Position numbers and translations under genes: made by a program. The notes under the pieces were generated by a model, which saw only the letters and a program-made list of their open reading frames with translations, was not told the DNA's origin and did no database searches. A stretch of DNA of 33,641 nt from a virus. Numbering within the stretch: the first letter of the stretch is position 1; every line of letters begins with the position of its first letter. This document shows, in pieces, positions 3,738 to 18,981 of the stretch. The stretch is taken from positions 1 to 33,641 of IMG/VR virus record IMGVR_UViG_3300042362_000069; one strand, 5' to 3'.

Positions 3738-5041
3738 CAGCCCTCCTTACACCACTCAGTCAGTTGCTTCATGATTGGCTTCCAGTAAGCGTCATACACC
3801 TTGTCTGCCCTGTATTGGTCAGCAAAGGCCACAGCCTCGTCTGACACGCCTCTAGGAGCCTCGTAGGCCTCAATCAGAGCCTCCACGATGGACGGCACCT
3901 GTGGCGTACAGAACCAAGACCTTTGATGGCTATCCCAGAACGGTTGAATCGCCACAGCTGACCCAACCCCAACCAACTCAGGCTGAGCCGTGTAGTCAGA
4001 AACAATCACCCTTGTACCGCAGGCTTGGGACTCGATGACCGGAACTCCGAAGCCCTCTCCCATACTGCAAGCCAACAGCACATCCGAAGCCGTGTACAAC
4101 GCTGCTAACGCTTGCTGAGGGAAACCAGTCCGATAAGCGTAAGGGTCAACAATCTTGTACTGCTCAGGCTTCACGTTGCAAGCCTGCAACAAGTGAACAA
4201 GGTTGATACCACCCATCGCACCGTCACGCTCCGTGTGCAGATAGAGCAAAGCATCAGGACGGTCTTGAGCGAAAATAGCGAACGCCAAAATGTTCTCACC
4301 AAAAGATTTCCGTGAAGGATTCTGACCCTTGTTCGCAGCATTCATCATCACCACAAACCTGTCCTCATCCACCTCCATCAACTCCCTACCGGTGAACTCG
4401 CCACGACTATTCACCAACTTCGGTGTAGGAACAAACACATCCTCAAACGCATGAGGCGCATACAACGCATCCACCCCAGCATTCTGCAACATATCCAAAC
4501 CAAACTTAGACATCGCAATCGGTTTCACATTCGGACGCTTACACCACTCAACCACAGCAGGCGGACAAGGCGCATGGTCAATCGGCACCCACGACGCAAT
4601 ATTCGGTACCTGATCCAACGACTGAGACTTCAAAACCCACACATCAAACAACGTCATCAACATCGCAGGAATATCACGATTACCGTTAGCCCAATCCATC
4701 CAATGCGCAACAAGCACATCATCGGAATATGGTGACATTCCACGCGGATAAAGTTTTATCCCATTCCACATCGAAGCCATACCCTCAATGCCGTACATCG
4801 CATGAATCGCTACTTCGTGTTTTTGTTTGATGAGCCTTTGGACGACTTGCGCTGTTTGGGTTCCGTAACCGGTTGGCGCGAACGGGGCGTTCGAGTACCA
4901 GAGGATTCGTAACGATTCGGAATTGGAAGGTCTGCTTGCTCTGGCAAGTTGGCTACTCCCCACCGGAGCAATATCTCTGCCTCCAGCTCTGGTAACTCGA
5001 CCGGAGTGTTTTTGATTATGACCAGCATTCTTTCCCACCAT
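3737..5041 (-). CDS. GT-B family glycosyltransferase (GT1/GT4-like)
   Basis: The 434-residue open frame starts at ATG 5041 with AAGGAG very close upstream. The catalytic fold clearly begins at about residue 44 (LRILWYSNAPFAPTGYG). The donor-site motif SMGEGFGVPVIESQACGTRV and IVSDYTAQPELVG near residue 340 are typical of GT4/GT1 enzymes. The first 43 residues are basic, polar and unlike the rest. This stretch overlaps a second frame that also looks coding, so the true start may be internal, though I find no better start with a good ribosome site. It lies just downstream of the capsid terminator and upstream of two more transferases. The acceptor is unknown. Confidence 0.82.
   Translation of the reverse strand: MVGKNAGHNQKHSGRVTRAGGRDIAPVGSSQLARASRPSNSESLRILWYSNAPFAPTGYGTQTAQVVQRLIKQKHEVAIHAMYGIEGMASMWNGIKLYPRGMSPYSDDVLVAHWMDWANGNRDIPAMLMTLFDVWVLKSQSLDQVPNIASWVPIDHAPCPPAVVEWCKRPNVKPIAMSKFGLDMLQNAGVDALYAPHAFEDVFVPTPKLVNSRGEFTGRELMEVDEDRFVVMMNAANKGQNPSRKSFGENILAFAIFAQDRPDALLYLHTERDGAMGGINLVHLLQACNVKPEQYKIVDPYAYRTGFPQQALAALYTASDVLLACSMGEGFGVPVIESQACGTRVIVSDYTAQPELVGVGSAVAIQPFWDSHQRSWFCTPQVPSIVEALIEAYEAPRGVSDEAVAFADQYRADKVYDAYWKPIMKQLTEWCKEG
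4810..5028 (-). CDS. Small post-capsid protein overlapping the GT-B gene start
   Basis: A 72-residue frame from ATG 5028 overlaps the first part of the GT-B gene in another frame. Its N-terminal half (MLVIIKNTPVELPELEAE, then ILLRWGVANL) has a regular amphipathic pattern and reads like a folded domain. Its C-terminal half is a basic Ser/Thr/Pro/Lys tail. In the same stretch the GT-B frame looks less protein-like, which favours this frame for bases 4920-5028. Small proteins directly after the capsid gene are common in phages, but I do not know a function. Ribosome site is weak, so it may depend on the AAGGAG used by the GT-B start. Confidence 0.5.
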   Translation of the reverse strand: MLVIIKNTPVELPELEAEILLRWGVANLPEQADLPIPNRYESSGTRTPRSRQPVTEPKQRKSSKGSSNKNTK

Positions 5042-5157: not shown

Positions 5158-6336
5158 TTATGGCTGGAGGAGGTGCTTGATGTGTGATGTCTGTGGCAAA
5201 TCGCCGTCGACACGGAATGTCGCACGGAACGTGACGAGACCAGCATTGAATGCGAAGTCATCGGAACGATCCAAACGAAGACCGCCCACCGTACGTACGA
5301 AGTACGAAGGTAGGTGACCGAAGATGACCGACTTGGTGCCAGTTGCTACGTCAACCATTGATGGGTTTTCGTAGATTGGCTTACCGAGCAACATGTCTCG
5401 TGCGTCAGCTGACAAACTTGGGGCGAAAACGTAGTTCCCCGCGGAGTCTTTCAGCTTTCGAACCTGACCGATTGACTTGCCGTTCATCATGAAGCCACAA
5501 CCTGGGAGCAGACGAGCTGCACCATCAAGGCTGTAAACAAGGTCGATGAGGTTGTCTGCGGTGAACGCTGTAGCAGTTCCGGCCGTTCCGCCCACGCTTG
5601 ACGCGGTGACGATTCCGTTTGCGGTGTCCGTTCCTGAACCAACAGTCAATGCTGAACCAACTGCGAATCCGAGTGCGTTACCAACCTGGTCACCCAAGAA
5701 TGACAACATGTCAACGCCAGAGTCTTCAAGCAGTTCAGTTGAAACCTGCGTGATGAAGCTGAATTTGAATGCGCTCAAGGTGATGAACGAGTTGAATGCT
5801 GGATCGGATTCTCCGATTGCTGAACCTTCGCCAGTTACGGTGCCAACTGAATAAGTCGACAACGATGGGATTTGAAGGTTTTCGCCACCTGTGGTGTTCA
5901 ACACAGTTGAAGTCTCAAGTACTGGTGCGGTCAAACGAGCGCGCATGATTACCTGATCGTAGAACGATGTTGGAACTGGTGAACCTGTGCTTGACTTCAA
6001 GATGTCACGCTTCTCAAACGAATGGCTGCGCTTCTCACCTGTGAACAACGAACGAAGATTTGTGATGTCATCGCTTGCTGGAACGCCGGCAACAGGACGA
6101 ACCTGATCGGCGATTTCACGGGTTGCTGAATCCATGCGGAGTTCGCGAGCTTCGTCTTCACGAAGTTTTGCGATGGTCTGTCCACGCTCGTCCAGTTCCT
6201 TCGAGATGCGCTCGTAGGTTTGGTTTTCTTCTGCTGAGAGGTCACGCTTCTCTGCGGTGGCTTTATCCAAGATTGCCTTGGCTTCGTTCCATGCACGGTT
6301 GCGAATCTCAACCTGACGGTCAATATATTCTTTCAT
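5158..6336 (-). CDS. Major capsid protein (HK97 fold)
   Basis: This 392-residue protein starts at ATG 6336 behind an AAGGA site. Residues 1 to about 75 are a charged coiled coil (RQVEIRNRAWNEAKAILDK onward), the delta/scaffold domain removed by the prohead protease in HK97-type heads. After a linker, the rest has the capsid-family pattern: SFYDQVIMRARLTAPVLE, ETSTVLNTTGGENLQIPSL, and late FGHLPSYFVRTVGGLRLDRS. It follows the protease gene after a 133-base spacer and is followed by a terminator, fitting high, separately controlled expression. Length is normal for the family. Confidence 0.93.
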   Translation of the reverse strand: MKEYIDRQVEIRNRAWNEAKAILDKATAEKRDLSAEENQTYERISKELDERGQTIAKLREDEARELRMDSATREIADQVRPVAGVPASDDITNLRSLFTGEKRSHSFEKRDILKSSTGSPVPTSFYDQVIMRARLTAPVLETSTVLNTTGGENLQIPSLSTYSVGTVTGEGSAIGESDPAFNSFITLSAFKFSFITQVSTELLEDSGVDMLSFLGDQVGNALGFAVGSALTVGSGTDTANGIVTASSVGGTAGTATAFTADNLIDLVYSLDGAARLLPGCGFMMNGKSIGQVRKLKDSAGNYVFAPSLSADARDMLLGKPIYENPSMVDVATGTKSVIFGHLPSYFVRTVGGLRLDRSDDFAFNAGLVTFRATFRVDGDLPQTSHIKHLLQP

Positions 6337-13104: not shown

Positions 13105-13510
13105 TTTGAATCTTCACCTCCACGAAGCCAAGCCTTGCTCGATCAACAGGAGTAAAACCAAGCAGGGACAAACAATCTAACACCTGAGCATCTAAAGCTC
13201 GCAACGCTGAACGATCACGCCAATCACTTTCACGCAACACCTTCACACGTAACGCAGCTCTCTCATCAATCTGTTCAGCCACAATCTGTAACAACTCAAT
13301 ATCCATCTGCGGGCTAATCCAAGTGAAACCAACATTCCAAACACGATCCCAAAACTGGCGACCAGCCTGACCCAACGGCCTATGCGGTTCAGGCACCAAC
13401 GATGAAGTCGGGATAGCAATCACCGTGTCAGGCAAAGGACGCTTGCCAGGATTACCAGCACGACGCTTCTGCTCCACCGGCTTAGGGGGACGACCAACAG
13501 GTTTAGGCAT
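13037..13510 (-). CDS. terS: Terminase small subunit
   Basis: I place the start at ATG 13510 (157 residues), eight bases inside the end of the methyltransferase gene, which suggests coupling. An upstream in-frame TTG would add 16 unlikely residues. The N-terminus PKPVGRPPKPVEQKRRAGNPGKRPLP is the basic, Pro-rich start seen in P27-type small terminases. Then come a helical DNA-binding/oligomer core (FWDRVWNVGFTWISPQMD, LLQIVAEQIDERAALR) and LDCLSLLGFTPVDRARLGF. It would recognise the packaging site and bring DNA to TerL. Confidence 0.88.
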   Translation of the reverse strand: MPKPVGRPPKPVEQKRRAGNPGKRPLPDTVIAIPTSSLVPEPHRPLGQAGRQFWDRVWNVGFTWISPQMDIELLQIVAEQIDERAALRVKVLRESDWRDRSALRALDAQVLDCLSLLGFTPVDRARLGFVEVKIQNELEQFRERKSQRTNVVDSEGL

Positions 13511-14693
13511 TGAGGAAGTCGTGAACCTTCCCAGACGATTCCAACACCGGCAACACACCAGTCAGCTTCTGGAATCGAGCGCAGATCACATCAACATAGT
13601 GTGGGTCTAGTTCCATCAGGTATGCGACACGGTTGGTTTCCTGTGCTGCGATCAGGGTGCTACCAGAACCACCAAACACATCCAAAATACAACCGCTATC
13701 AGCATATTCATTTATGCACCAGGCAAGAAGTTTTGTTGGCTTCTGAGTCGGGTGAACTCTTTTGTCATGCTCACCTTCCCTAATCATTCCGTTCCATAGT
13801 TGTCTATGAATACGGACTGGACTAGCCATATTTGTCCAAGCAAGTTCTGCATCAGCAAAAGTATTTTCTATGCCTGAATCACCACGCTTATCCCAAACCA
13901 ACCAACATGAAGAAGGCGGGAGAGCGTTTGCATAATAATTACCACCCCACAAGATTTGCTTGTCAGATAAATCTTTGAGCAACTCATAACTTGCTATTGC
14001 AGTATCTGTTGAATCATCTCCAATAATTTGTTTATATTTTCCCTTCTTTGCAACACCAAAATCAGCACCAACTTTTCCATCTTTAACAACAGCAACACCA
14101 TATGGTGGGTCAGTTAAAACTAAACCTATTTTTGATTCATTGATGAGTACATCCAAATCAGATTTACTAATTGCGCTTCCACACATCACTCGATGTTTGC
14201 CAAGAAGCCACACATCACCCAACTTCGATACATCAGGCACGTCCTCAGAAACCTCATCAACATCAGTAGGCAACTCAATCTGCTCTACACGATCTAGCAA
14301 TTCCTGAACAGCCTTATCATCCCAACCCGATGACTCCAGCAGACCTGGGTTTAACGACCCAACATCGTTGATGAGATCAGCCAACGCCTCCTCGTCATAA
14401 TCACCCAACTCAGCTGTGCGATTATCTGCCAACGCAAACGCCTTAGAAGTCACCTCATCATCATCAACCCACACGACAGCAATCTCATCCCAACCCAAAG
14501 CCTGAGCAGCTTGCAAAGTGTGGTTGCCTGCGATGACGACGTTGTCTGTCCGGCGCACGACAATCGGTTTGCGTTGCCCGAACGCTTCAAGGCTTCGCTT
14601 CACGGCCTCGATGTCACCACGTCTTGGGTTGCCTGGTAGCAACTTCAGTTCGGTGATTGAGTGGGCGAGCTGGAGCAGGTCTTTTTGGATCAT
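13503..14693 (-). CDS. ParB-domain DNA methyltransferase (beta class)
   Basis: The start is ATG 14693 (396 residues) with AGGGTG upstream. The longer open frame to 14849 adds low-complexity residues through a hairpin region. Residues 12-110 form a ParB/Srx-like domain (LKLLPGNPRRGDIEAVKRSL, NVVIAGNHTLQAAQALGW, FALADNRTAELG). The catalytic DPPY is at 195-198 and the SAM-binding FGGSGS at 340-345. That order is beta class, so the enzyme makes N6-methyladenine or N4-methylcytosine. Such ParB fusions are common just before terminase genes and may protect or mark phage DNA. The stretch 13740-14170 is visibly more AT-rich than both flanks. Confidence 0.88.
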   Translation of the reverse strand: MIQKDLLQLAHSITELKLLPGNPRRGDIEAVKRSLEAFGQRKPIVVRRTDNVVIAGNHTLQAAQALGWDEIAVVWVDDDEVTSKAFALADNRTAELGDYDEEALADLINDVGSLNPGLLESSGWDDKAVQELLDRVEQIELPTDVDEVSEDVPDVSKLGDVWLLGKHRVMCGSAISKSDLDVLINESKIGLVLTDPPYGVAVVKDGKVGADFGVAKKGKYKQIIGDDSTDTAIASYELLKDLSDKQILWGGNYYANALPPSSCWLVWDKRGDSGIENTFADAELAWTNMASPVRIHRQLWNGMIREGEHDKRVHPTQKPTKLLAWCINEYADSGCILDVFGGSGSTLIAAQETNRVAYLMELDPHYVDVICARFQKLTGVLPVLESSGKVHDFLNA

Positions 14694-14767
14694 GACAAAC
14701 ACCCTAGTTTCGCGGAGGCGTGTCTTGCGCACGGCATGGGTAGTCCTGCCTTCCGACGTTTTGGGTT

Positions 14768-14802
14768 TGACCCCACCCCCCGAGGTGCCGGTGGGGGGGT
14801 CA
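14768..14802 (-). other. GC-rich hairpin containing the HNH stop codon
   Basis: TGACCCC at 14768-14774 (plus strand) pairs with GGGGTCA at 14796-14802. Inside lie a C-run (14776-14781) and a G-run (14793-14799), giving nested pairing. The HNH stop codon is the outermost three bases. No U-tract follows, so it is not a standard terminator. It could limit read-through or stabilise an mRNA end. Confidence 0.5.
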
Positions 14803-15102
14803 TGGCTTGCCTCGGTTGCCTCGACTGGCGTTGCATGAGCGGTGCGCACCCCGAAGCTCAGAGTTCACGTCACCTGGCAGAACATGGTCGGCTTGCCAAG
14901 GGTCGTTTGGGTCTGAGGGTTTGCCACATATCCAGCAGAGGATGGTGGAGTCCCTGACTCGTTTGGCGCGTGTGGCGTAGTCGCCTTGGTAATGAATGCG
15001 TTTCTTGTTTCGGCTGGCTTGCCATGCCTGTTGGCATGTGTTGCAGCGTTGGATGTTTTGTGTGAGTTGTCTGCACACTAGGCAGGGGCGTTGGATGGGC
15101 AT
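14800..15102 (-). CDS. HNH endonuclease
   Basis: This 100-residue protein starts at ATG 15102. It has a zinc-ribbon-like N-terminus (CLVC near residue 7, CNTC near 20) and a second pair CWIC near 56. Then comes DPWQADHVLPGDVNSELRG ending AHRSCNASRGN. The ADH, the following Asn and H-x-x-C-N match the HNH fold with a structural zinc. HNH proteins next to terminase genes assist packaging cleavage in HK97-like phages, which fits this location, one gene before terS. Free-standing homing activity cannot be excluded. Confidence 0.87.
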   Translation of the reverse strand: MPIQRPCLVCRQLTQNIQRCNTCQQAWQASRNKKRIHYQGDYATRAKRVRDSTILCWICGKPSDPNDPWQADHVLPGDVNSELRGAHRSCNASRGNRGKP

Positions 15103-15104
15103 GG

Positions 15105-17210
15105 TTACCAGAGTTCTGATTCGAGGTTGTCTTGATGGTCAAGTTGGTCAGGGTTGGGGTGGGCTGGGGTGGGGTTGGTGTCTAAGTGGTTCCGATTTTC
15201 TAGGGTTTCTGTTTGCGGTACGGAACCGCGTGTACCTATTCGGTACACACGCTGGTTCCTTTGTACACCATGGGCTGGATCAGGTGGTTCCGAAGTGGTT
15301 CCGAAGGTGGTTCCGAAATCGTTGGTGGTTCCGACTGGTTCCGTCCTTTGTGGTTGAGACTGGTTCAGGGGGTCTGGTCGGGGTTGTTTGCGACATTGGA
15401 TGGCTCGTCCGATGGCTGACTTGTGGCCTAGTGAGATGCCTTGGTCTTTGAGTTGGCGTATCACTTCGTTGACTCCGATGTTGATGGGGAATCCTAGTTC
15501 GTCTAGTCGGTTGGCTATTGCGATTTCTTTGACTGTCCAGCCTCGCTGCTCCTTCGAGCGGAGCCTGATGGTGATGACATCATCAAAGTCTTCAACGATG
15601 AGGCTGACGGTTTCTGGTACCCAGCTGATGCGTGTGTGGGTGCGCTTCAGGGTGAGGCCATCGTCAGACTTGTCGAGGCGGTACACGATGTCCACATCAT
15701 CGTTCTTGGCTGAGGAACCGCGTTGGCCTTGTTTCTTGCCACCGTCTTTGCCGGCGTGGTCTGTGCGTACACACGCAACGTTGGCACGTTTGAGGGCTAA
15801 GCCTGTGGTTCGTGCGAACTCACGGTAGGAGTCAGCAGAGTTCTCTTCACCATCAATGGCACGTCCTGTGGTATCTATCACTACAACCTCAGCCTTGGTG
15901 AGTTCTACGAGTTTGATGATGGCTGAGGCACCTTCGGTGGTGTTGAGTGAGGGGAGGTTTGGGATGAGTGCATAGTGGAGGTGGGATAGGTCGTCGTCTT
16001 CTGTGTATCCGAATTGTTCTAGGCGTTCGTATAGGTCGGCTTCAATCATTTCGTAATCCAAATACAGGCAATGGACTGGTGGTTGGGCTGGTTGTCCGAG
16101 GATTGGTTTGCCGGAGGCGAGTGCTGCGACGACGTTGAGTGTGAGCCAGGACTTCCCTGTCTTCGCTGAGGCATACAGCGCGGTCTGTCGGCCTTTGGCG
16201 ATGAGTGGTTTGGCTAACCATTCTTCTGTTGCATGTTCTAACGACCAGAAGGTTTTCCAGTCCACCAACATCGAGAGCATTTCGTCGGGTGTGGGGATTG
16301 GGGTGGTTGGTTCGGCTTTGCCTTCAGAGGTTGCTAGGAACGCTTGTGAGGCTTGTTTCCAGTCTCCGCCATGCTTTGATGCTGCATAGTATCCGAAGCG
16401 GTTGTAGCCCCCTTCGGGTAGCCAAGGGATGGAGCTGGTGAAGACGATGAGTGCGTCGTTGCCGTTGTGTCCGATGGTTGCGCTGGTGCCGTCGCGTGGG
16501 TCTTTGCCTGGGCGAACCCAATGCTGTTCACCATGACGGTCAGTCTTAGCGAGTGTCCAGCCGTCGGGGATGAGTAGCTGTTCCCATGTGGTCTTGGCGT
16601 TGTAGCGCGCTGATGGTGTGTTGGGGTCTGTGAGGAATGAGTCGGGTTGGCCTTGGGGTTTAACCATCTCTGGTTGTTTGGTTAAGAGTTTGACGAGCCA
16701 GTCTGGGGCTTTGGCTGGTTTGCGTTCATGTGGGCTGAACCCGTCTTCCCATTGGTAGGCACGTCCGTTTGGGTGGATGGTTGGGGCTGCGAGGACTTGG
16801 CCTCCGGTACCTCGGATATCGAGACCTACGCCGAGCCTGCTTCCAGCGTCGTTGCGTATGTCTTTATCACAATAGAAGTACAGGTGTTGTCCACCGCTAC
16901 CTGTGATTGCTGTAACTGTTTCGGGTAGCTGACCATACTTTTCTTGTAGGTCGTGCAGGGTGTCTGAGCCTTTGTATTCATCCCTATCGTCCACGTCGAG
17001 AACAAAGATGCGTCCGTGTTTGGTTTGCCCTGTGGCGATACCAATTCCGTATCCTGAGTATTGGCTGGTGAACCAGTCGTTGACAACATGGATGTCGTTG
17101 CTGGCTTTGTCTTGCCATGCGTTCATCGGTGGATACTTCTCACCAGGCTTGATAGGTATCACCCTGATACCTAGCTCAGCGAGTTTGATTGCTTCTTCAC
17201 GCATCGTCAC
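15105..17210 (-). CDS. Primase-polymerase/helicase replication protein
   Basis: The 701-residue protein starts with GTG 17210 (GTGA overlap with the previous stop, GGAG at good spacing). An in-frame ATG lies six bases on. Residues 1-165 are a prim-pol domain: D72-x-D74 in FVLDVDD, His109 in SGGQHLYF, and LDIRGTGGQVLAAP. A RecA/RepA-type ATPase follows with Walker A ASAKTGKS at 347-354 and Walker B VVVID at 442-446, plus DHAGKDGG at 484. A winged-helix-like region (about 570-610) leads to a disordered, charged tail. It should prime and unwind phage DNA. The tail is encoded by repeat-rich DNA that looks like an origin. Confidence 0.9.
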   Translation of the reverse strand: MTMREEAIKLAELGIRVIPIKPGEKYPPMNAWQDKASNDIHVVNDWFTSQYSGYGIGIATGQTKHGRIFVLDVDDRDEYKGSDTLHDLQEKYGQLPETVTAITGSGGQHLYFYCDKDIRNDAGSRLGVGLDIRGTGGQVLAAPTIHPNGRAYQWEDGFSPHERKPAKAPDWLVKLLTKQPEMVKPQGQPDSFLTDPNTPSARYNAKTTWEQLLIPDGWTLAKTDRHGEQHWVRPGKDPRDGTSATIGHNGNDALIVFTSSIPWLPEGGYNRFGYYAASKHGGDWKQASQAFLATSEGKAEPTTPIPTPDEMLSMLVDWKTFWSLEHATEEWLAKPLIAKGRQTALYASAKTGKSWLTLNVVAALASGKPILGQPAQPPVHCLYLDYEMIEADLYERLEQFGYTEDDDLSHLHYALIPNLPSLNTTEGASAIIKLVELTKAEVVVIDTTGRAIDGEENSADSYREFARTTGLALKRANVACVRTDHAGKDGGKKQGQRGSSAKNDDVDIVYRLDKSDDGLTLKRTHTRISWVPETVSLIVEDFDDVITIRLRSKEQRGWTVKEIAIANRLDELGFPINIGVNEVIRQLKDQGISLGHKSAIGRAIQCRKQPRPDPLNQSQPQRTEPVGTTNDFGTTFGTTSEPPDPAHGVQRNQRVYRIGTRGSVPQTETLENRNHLDTNPTPAHPNPDQLDHQDNLESELW
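15186..15343. repeat. Iteron-like direct repeats, candidate replication origin
   Basis: Five exact copies of GTGGTTCCGA (plus strand) start at 15186, 15284, 15295, 15307 and 15325. A shorter TGGTTCCG starts at 15336, TGGTTCC at 15253, and an inverted CGGAACC at 15221. From 15284 on, starts are 11, 12, 18 and about 11 bases apart, near one helix turn. The cluster lies in the coding DNA for the disordered tail of the replication protein, like the iterons inside lambda gene O. Origin function is inferred. Confidence 0.65.
15230..15248. repeat. Inverted repeat in the candidate origin
   Basis: GTGTACC at 15230-15236 and GGTACAC at 15242-15248 form a perfect seven-base inverted repeat with a five-base centre, lying between iteron copies. 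A related GTACACC follows at about 15263. It could be a dimeric protein-binding site. Confidence 0.5.
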
Positions 17211-17458
17211 GATGCCAACTCCACTTCATCGAACCAGTTTGACCAAATCTCTGATGGGTGTTTACCGAGTAGGCAAGCGTATTTGTCTGCACGCCATTGG
17301 TCTAGGTAGGTGTTGCCTTCACGCCATGTTTGGATTGCAGCTCTACCGACACCGAGGCGTTCACCGATGGTTGATGCCCACATGTCTTCAGGGAATTGTT
17401 TGAGTAATGCTGTGGTGGGATAGTTGTATCCCTTGTTGAGTCGTTGTTTAGTTTTCAT
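17207..17458 (-). CDS. Helix-turn-helix DNA-binding protein
   Basis: ATG 17458 (83 residues) has a strong GGAGGG site and forms TAATG with the methyltransferase stop, so I prefer it over the longer frame. The core WASTIGERLGVGRAAIQTWREG reads as a helix-turn-helix (IGERLGV then a recognition helix). The C-terminal part RADKYACLLGKHPSEIWSNW resembles small phage DNA-binding proteins with a HPSEIW motif. It overlaps the primase gene start by four bases. It may regulate this operon or help replication start. Confidence 0.75.
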   Translation of the reverse strand: MKTKQRLNKGYNYPTTALLKQFPEDMWASTIGERLGVGRAAIQTWREGNTYLDQWRADKYACLLGKHPSEIWSNWFDEVELAS

Positions 17459-18981
17459 TATCCCTCCAAGGATGTTTGTAGTTTCATGAGCTGCTTGCCA
17501 ATCCACTCAGCGACAGGTGAGGCGACTCCGTTACCGCATTGTTTATAGCGGTGAGTGTCAGCCTGCTCAGTACCATCAGCCTTGTAACGGGTGTGGTCAT
17601 CAGGCCAACCCATGAGGCGTTCACATTCCAACGGGGTTAGTCGACGTACAGCCATTGATGGCTCGGCGACTAGGTGTTCACCGCGTGACGATGGGACACC
17701 GCCTGAACCACCACTACGCAAAGTTCCAGCAACTTCACCTTCAAGCAGTACACCTGTTGATTGTTTGGTGCCTGCTCGTAAAGCGTGATGGGTTTCGTTG
17801 ATGCTGTCGTTGTATTCATCGTAAGCAACAGCGTTGACATGGGTTGAGGTGAGTGTTGCCATAGGGTCACCATCGTTACCAATACCTAAGCCTTGACGGT
17901 TTTGTGCATCATGTTTCTCTGGGTCACGCAAAGCGTTCCGAGTATCAATCGGGTAAGCAACAGCATGAATGTCGGTACCGGTCAGGGTGAACATTGGGTC
18001 ACCTTCTTCGGTGTGTCCTTTACCTGCTGGGCCGTTCTGAGGTTGGCGACCAATCACATTTCCTTGAATACCGTAAGCAACTGATGGTGCTGATTGCGCA
18101 CGACGCGACTTCACATATGGTTCAACTACGACTTTGTTTTCGTTGACATATTGGGAACCAACACCTTTGTAATCTCTAGCTGCTAAAGCACCAACGATTT
18201 CTTCATCCTCTACAACCATGTTGTAATACTCCGAACCACTTGGCCCTCCTGAACCTTTTGACCATTTGGAAGTTACGGAAGTTCTAAGGATGTCACCGTT
18301 GTCGGTGCTTCCAGCTGCCCATTGACCACTTGCTCCAATGCTTTCTGAAGTCTCGCTGGCAGCACTTTTCCTCTTCGGTTTGCCCTTCGTAATATCCCTT
18401 GGCAAGCTTTCGCGGATAGGTAGTAACGGGTTGGGACAGTTTGAGGCGGTTGCAGAATTGAAGATAGCGATGCAGAAGACTCTTCTGCGTCGTTGGGGGA
18501 TTCCGAAGTGTTGTGCATCCAAGAGTCCCCATTCGATGACCATCGCCCCTGCTTTAGCCATTTCGTCAATGATGACTCCGAAGTCAGCACCTCTGTTGGA
18601 AGATAATGCTCCTGCGACGTTTTCCCAAATAGAGATTTTTGGATATTCATTGTTCGTTTCCTTTCGTAGTTCGTTGATGATTCGTATGCCTTCATGGAAT
18701 AAGCCTGATCGTTCACCTTCTAGTCCGGCTCGTTTGCCTGCGACTGAGAGGTCTTGGCATGGGCTGCCCCATGCAACAACATCTGGTGGTGTTCCGTGTC
18801 GCAGGATTTCTTTTGCTGTGAGTGTTGAGATGTCACCCCATTTTGGTACTTGAGGCCAATGGCGTTCAAGGATTGATGTGGCGTGTTTGTCCCATTCGCA
18901 TTGGTAGATGGTTTTCATGCCAGCGTTTTCTAGTCCGAGGTCAAAGCCTCCGACACCGCTGAACAAGCTGAGTACATTCAT
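17458..18981 (-). CDS. DNA cytosine-5 methyltransferase
   Basis: This 507-residue enzyme starts at ATG 18981 after AGGAGGG. It has the C5 motifs in order: FSGVGGFDLGL (I, 7-17), SPCQ with catalytic Cys75 (IV), ENVAGA (VI, 120-125), QRRRR (VIII, 163-167), the RRLTPLECERLMGWPD segment (IX, about 445-460) and QCGNGVA (X, 480-486). The target-recognition region between VIII and IX is long, nearly 280 residues. It holds repeated units such as GDPMFTLTGTDIHAVAY (326-342) and GDPMATLTSTHVNAVAY (370-386). It probably protects phage DNA from host restriction. The long region may allow more than one target sequence. Confidence 0.93.
   Translation of the reverse strand: MNVLSLFSGVGGFDLGLENAGMKTIYQCEWDKHATSILERHWPQVPKWGDISTLTAKEILRHGTPPDVVAWGSPCQDLSVAGKRAGLEGERSGLFHEGIRIINELRKETNNEYPKISIWENVAGALSSNRGADFGVIIDEMAKAGAMVIEWGLLDAQHFGIPQRRRRVFCIAIFNSATASNCPNPLLPIRESLPRDITKGKPKRKSAASETSESIGASGQWAAGSTDNGDILRTSVTSKWSKGSGGPSGSEYYNMVVEDEEIVGALAARDYKGVGSQYVNENKVVVEPYVKSRRAQSAPSVAYGIQGNVIGRQPQNGPAGKGHTEEGDPMFTLTGTDIHAVAYPIDTRNALRDPEKHDAQNRQGLGIGNDGDPMATLTSTHVNAVAYDEYNDSINETHHALRAGTKQSTGVLLEGEVAGTLRSGGSGGVPSSRGEHLVAEPSMAVRRLTPLECERLMGWPDDHTRYKADGTEQADTHRYKQCGNGVASPVAEWIGKQLMKLQTSLEG

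Follow-up and report, generated by a model that had tools for sequence, protein, structure and literature searches.

The 3' end of the PrimPol gene (primase-polymerase/helicase, 701 residues) in a 33,641-base phage record, hereafter the window, carries an array of short direct repeats joined to a DNA hairpin. The best explanation for this element, which we regard as highly probable, is an iteron-plus-hairpin replication origin recognised by the C-terminal domain (C-domain) of PrimPol itself, at which, we infer, the protein binds and replication fires. Origins are rarely located in phages known only from metagenomes; here, dozens of genomes, a conserved layout and natural specificity swaps make initiator–iteron recognition and the role of the hairpin testable in one polypeptide.

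Nearly all genes of the window lie on the minus strand, and the parts of the PrimPol gene (Pfam and AlphaFold model) that concern this study are as follows.

15105 to 17210, minus strand: PrimPol gene
15360 to 15566, minus strand: codons of the C-domain, residues 549–617, the predicted iteron-recognition domain (helices; replaced in L055 along with the iteron word)
15108 to 15359, minus strand: codons 618–701 of the disordered tail (pLDDT; the tail is absent in the sister clade L058–L080)

Residues 7–171 form a Prim-Pol domain (PF09250, E = 1.2e-38), and residues 326–490 form an AAA_25/RepA-like RecA-fold ATPase (PF13481, E = 1.1e-23). The ATPase fold resembles RecA-like proteins, including RSF1010 RepA (1nlf; Foldseek rank 12, TMt 0.61, E 1e-8); phmmer gave only 0.059 for the likeness to RSF1010 RepA. 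In the AlphaFold model, the C-domain (about residues 549–617) has three predicted helices (560–571, 580–589, and 597–607) and appears HTH-like; because its searches against Pfam and PDB folds returned nothing significant, this label rests on a model of moderate confidence. Residues 613–701 are predicted to be disordered (pLDDT below 50).

The array spans 15186–15344 and consists of seven direct copies and one inverted copy of a GGTTCC core, distributed over all three PrimPol reading frames. The elements of the array and the hairpin within it are listed below.

15186 to 15195, plus strand: exact iteron GTGGTTCCGA, distal to the hairpin
15220 to 15229, minus strand: inverted iteron, one outer arm of the hairpin (GGAACC at 15222–15227 on the plus strand)
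15222 to 15259, minus strand: 38-nt hairpin or dyad, GGAACCAGCGTGTGTACCGAATAGGTACACGCGGTTCC on the coding strand (15 pairs, −13.7 kcal/mol with DNA parameters, z −6.2)
15252 to 15261, plus strand: direct iteron that is third in the conserved layout and supplies the second outer arm of the hairpin (core GGTTCC at 15254–15259)
15284 to 15293, plus strand: exact iteron GTGGTTCCGA, its core 32 bp from the hairpin iteron
15295 to 15304, plus strand: exact iteron GTGGTTCCGA, 11 bp from the 15284 copy
15307 to 15316, plus strand: exact iteron GTGGTTCCGA, 12 bp from the 15295 copy
15325 to 15334, plus strand: exact iteron GTGGTTCCGA, 18 bp from the 15307 copy
15335 to 15344, plus strand: iteron variant CTGGTTCCGT

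The seventh core, CTGGTTCC, is found at 15252–15259. GGTTCC or GGAACC occurs 8 times in the 155 bp of the array compared with 20 times in the remaining 33.5 kb, and the array is the densest 6-mer cluster of the window except for an ACC-repeat stretch near 27.8 kb. Spacings of 10, 11, 12, and 32 bp are near whole helix turns, but that of 18 bp is not. The exact copies occupy all three codon phases. When the 89 residues of the tail were recoded synonymously with genome codon usage, 8 cores were obtained in 0 of 20,000 trials, and synonymous shuffling of the tail's own codons yielded them in 1 of 20,000. The repeats are clearly real and beyond chance, and at least three direct repeats of an initiator-specific word thus lie in or beside the initiator gene, as in iteron origins. 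An earlier note on this DNA had described five exact copies plus shorter ones and an inverted copy in a disordered tail, and had argued that codon choice alone would not keep them exact; our data agree on each point. Its spacings of 11, 12, and 18 bp among the last five copies were also reproduced, whereas the final one is 10 bp and not about 11 bp.

The outer arms of the hairpin are the inverted pair of the iteron. The earlier note had rightly recognised an inverted repeat among the iterons, which extends over 38 nt (15222–15259) rather than over 15230–15248; it had overlooked this full length, the participation of the third and inverted copies in the hairpin, and the genome end described below. 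Among the relatives, the interiors of the hairpins are nearly wholly different in sequence and retain their pairing. Native interiors form 9.2 pairs on average, compared with 4.0 when arms are swapped between unlike elements, and in L049 and L051 a C-to-T change in one arm is matched by a G-to-A change. Only 1 of 369 stem pairs, from 25 distinct hairpins, is G.T, as folded with DNA parameters, which disfavour G.T; this Watson–Crick pairing therefore argues for selection on DNA and not on RNA. The 5' arm is longer than the 3' arm, by 2–3 nt, in about 20 of 23 hairpins. The loops vary by clade (TATTC or similar, GTA, GATA, and TATA). An HUH (rolling-circle) or integron-like reading was set aside, because loop sequences that differ between clades leave no conserved nick site.

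Two further observations concern the surroundings of the hairpin. The spacer between it and the next iteron (e.g., in L043 and L072) holds a conserved box, AGAACCCA / TGAAACC(C/G)TTGCCAGACAAA, which does not change with the iteron word, is present in the window only in degenerate form, and may be the site of a second protein. In L224, a locus without a PrimPol match, the hairpin core TGTGTGACGTAGTCACA is found inside a longer palindrome, a match that may be due to chance.

A DNA similarity search against cultured phages gave no match for the window, and the PrimPol search of genome contigs found none. The nearest cultured relative of the window terminase is that of the Pontimonas phage phiPsal1 (40.8%), and this relationship, together with a WhiB-like gene in the window phage, points to an actinobacterial host. 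The relatives are probably freshwater actinophages. The first set comprised 79 distinct loci from IMG/VR, to which further loci were added later; the loci are partly non-independent, and several are near-identical. Because the 5' arm is the longer one, many elements escaped a blind exact-palindrome search, which an anchored search then replaced. A scan blind to the word accepted any 6-mer arranged as repeat, 10–14, repeat, 31–33, repeat, 26–34, and inverted repeat with a stable hairpin. This word-independent scan detected the element in 75 of the 79 loci whose PrimPol end is complete; the background, taken from the rest of these loci, was 7 matches in 1.18 million positions. The observed layout was repeat, 11–13, repeat, 32, repeat, about 32, and inverted repeat, with the hairpin. 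The window and nine further genomes, 10 in all, each had one well-folding element, at the PrimPol 3' end only, and shuffled sequence windows contained no element.

The word differs by clade (GGAACC, GGTACC, GGGACA, AGACAC, or AGACCC). It is translated in frame 1 in the clade of the window, where the hairpin overlaps the end of the PrimPol gene, and in frame 0 in others. In the sister clade L058–L080, PrimPol stops before the element, the tail is absent, and the element is intergenic. The 32-bp spacing is kept across these different frames and in non-coding DNA. The comparison of relatives proposed in the earlier note thus came out in favour of an origin: the repeats remain at their 32-bp spacing through changes of frame, tail protein, coding status, and word, which is the opposite of homologues that keep the amino acids and lose the DNA repeats, the pattern that the note had named as contrary evidence. 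This DNA-level conservation supports its reading of origin iterons inside the replication gene, with origin activity itself presumed.

The element was absent from four cultured phages whose PrimPol or helicase is a distant relative (Eileen, Shambre1, mu1/6, and Shagrat) and from phiPsal1, which combines a related terminase with a RepO-type replication module. Arrangements of a related kind exist at more distant PrimPol genes. In L187, six GGGACAGG copies lie in the coding tail with an 18-pair stem. L226, a PrimPol relative (48%), has a hairpin over the stop codon (around 5384–5422) and weaker CACGCG repeats. In L185, a distant relative, a 28-bp perfect palindrome, GAAGATTATTGTAATTACAATAATCTTC, follows the PrimPol stop (about 4844–4872); it is absent in the near twin L184.

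Three comparisons between loci indicate what the word follows. L055 and L036 are 96% identical over residues 1–536 of PrimPol but only 33% identical in the C-domain, with a switch of word from GG(A/T)ACC to GGGACA. L127 and L058 have TerS, TerL, and HNH proteins that are 100%, 96%, and 96% identical, but their C-domains are 38% identical and their words differ. L012 and L008 have PrimPol and iterons in common, whereas their TerS proteins are 37% identical. The word therefore follows PrimPol, and most closely its C-domain, not the packaging proteins. The co-change in the first two pairs is indirect evidence suggesting that word specificity matches the DNA-binding domain of the initiator. Co-inheritance of the C-domain and the iterons is possible because they are adjacent DNA; L055, however, shares its hairpin interior with its sister L024 and has a similar spacer, so the block was not simply swapped for an unrelated one.

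The contigs of about 20 relatives end at one homologous site 3' of the HNH gene, just before CCATGCCGT, and two complete contigs, G013 and G014, begin directly after it. This sequence is a probable cos site:

Window 14731 to 14739, minus strand: probable cos with a 9-nt 3' overhang, CCATGCCGT (contig ends and starts)

Between the HNH gene and cos, a GC-rich hairpin, CCCCCCACCGGCACCTCGGGGGGTGGGG (window about 14765–14800, minus strand), is kept in most relatives and could be a packaging signal or a terminator. The element lies about 0.45–0.6 kb from this physical genome end. Because of this closeness, a cosB-like terminase site, at which TerS or HNH bound to the repeats would guide cleavage of cos, was worth testing, and direct repeats are typical of such sites. 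However, the word differs between L127 and L058 despite their near-identical packaging proteins and is unchanged between L012 and L008 despite their divergent TerS; CCATGCCGT is constant across most iteron words, and the HNH gene intervenes between the element and cos. The site does not vary with terminase or TerS as a cosB would, and we consider terminase binding, the second option of the earlier note, quite improbable, since the word tracks the PrimPol C-domain and not TerS, TerL, or HNH. It is likewise unlikely that the iterons are a regulatory array rather than an origin, through which a phage protein such as PrimPol would control late transcription or its own expression. Initiator iterons often double as regulatory sites, and the array sits at the border between replication and packaging genes, but its position is the 3' end of the gene, a scan of 14600–15600 for sigma-70 promoters and terminators (generic consensus only) found no such site, and neither a conserved hairpin nor the DnaA boxes of one relative would be expected for an operator.

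Two further explanations place the selection elsewhere than on DNA. The hairpin could form in the transcript and act in the mRNA as a terminator or in stability or translational control; this we judge very improbable, given the near absence of G.T pairs noted above, the lack of a T-run after the hairpin, and the direct repeats, whose largely helix-phased spacing would be a feature of double-stranded DNA. Selection for GTT, EP, or NH peptides in the tail might in principle create repeats, and GTT does recur within the encoded peptide. The units nevertheless fall in three codon phases, and the synonymous nulls almost never reproduced them. With the layout also kept in the non-coding copies of the sister clade, which already refute it, this explanation has a negligible probability.

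Other signals of an origin were uneven among the genomes. In G013/L053, the perfect DnaA box TTATCCACA occurs three times around the element in a span of about 270 bp, compared with a single further DnaA-type box in 31.9 kb; among the loci generally, such boxes near the element were limited to L053/G013 and one TTGTCCACA in L184. No A+T-rich unwinding element was found within 14600–15889, about 500 bp either side, where the lowest GC content of a 60-bp segment was 0.467. GC skew flips at the PrimPol end in 11 of 11 genomes; it was set aside as origin evidence, being confounded by the border between early and late modules and by cos.

Several known systems resemble the iteron-plus-hairpin origin proposed here. 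In lambda, four 19-bp inverted-repeat iterons bind dimers of O, which is neither a primase nor a helicase, and the origin has a 40-bp A+T-rich segment; to our knowledge, no hairpin has been described there, and we know of no iteron-plus-hairpin layout at the P4 origin. Lambda shares with the window the location of origin iterons inside the initiator gene O (PMC5043065), and the P4 alpha protein likewise has primase, helicase, and an iteron-binding winged helix on one polypeptide, but with a Toprim-type primase (PMC4234260). SaPI Rep and SCCmec Cch2 are helicase-initiators whose direct-repeat binding sites follow directly after the genes that encode them; in SaPI, the C-terminal domain recognises these short repeats (PMC7581432). 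SCCmec additionally carries inverted repeats with the potential to fold into hairpins, the deletion of which left Cch2 binding unaffected (PMC7581432). Both initiators differ in being D5-type helicases with a separate primase (PMC7581432), and their repeats lie between genes, whereas those of the window are inside coding sequence. Experiments on pRN1 showed that replication needs a stem-loop immediately 3' of the prim-pol gene, and that the stem of this structure must be intact; pRN1 and phage BIP-1 share with the window a prim-pol replication protein, with a C-terminal winged helix, and an essential stem-loop 3' of the gene that is conserved in structure and not in sequence (PMC4234260). The window correspondingly has a PF09250 prim-pol protein with a predicted three-helix C-domain (moderate confidence) and a stem-loop at the 3' end of the replication gene whose structure is kept and whose sequence is not. 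By contrast, pRN1 has an SF3 helicase and no iterons, while the window has a RecA-fold (RepA-like) ATPase and iterons that are integral to the element. RSF1010 oriV uses iterons together with short primase stem-loops (PMC4234260) and a hexameric RepA helicase of the same fold. It differs in its three proteins (RepA, RepB', and RepC), two opposed stem-loops, and another primase family; the window has a RepA-fold helicase within one polypeptide, and one hairpin was found, with no separate RepB' or RepC. The best explanation by analogy is that the window element works like the SaPI/SCCmec, pRN1, and RSF1010 origins, uniting features that are separate among them. It joins iterons and hairpin, runs through the coding tail of its own initiator, and is most likely recognised by a single protein.

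In the mechanism that we consider most likely, the HTH-like C-domain of the PrimPol-helicase would bind the GGAACC iterons, as suggested by their co-change, and this binding may assemble a RepA-like ring beside the hairpin, as the fold suggests. The hairpin would then open or extrude to provide a loading structure, a primer-start structure for the Prim-Pol domain, or both, by analogy with pRN1 and RSF1010. Because the reading frame in the window's clade runs through the origin, the protein tail would largely be a by-product of origin DNA. More tentatively, and with slightly less than even confidence, these loci may represent a phage-wide class of origin in which one PrimPol/RepA-like-helicase/HTH protein reads its iterons and initiates on a DNA hairpin that is bulged in the 5' arm, and in which recognition domain and word are exchanged together as a specificity pair without change of hairpin or body. 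In such a class, selection on DNA structure would preserve the origin through frame changes, and whole tails would therefore be "translated origin." A variable disordered protein tail can be a by-product of DNA selection, which is a warning for its interpretation.

Minor features were also noted in the neighbouring genes. A ParB-like/N6-methyltransferase gene (window 13503–14693, minus strand) is inserted between cos and TerS. The relatives have either a longer gap with a window-type TerS or a short gap with a TerS that is about 33% identical, a pattern that is a mosaic module swap exchanging TerS. A C5 cytosine methylase of 507 amino acids (window 17458–18981, minus strand) matched Pfam in two stretches, the best covering residues 1–192 only, which is possibly due to an insertion in its middle.
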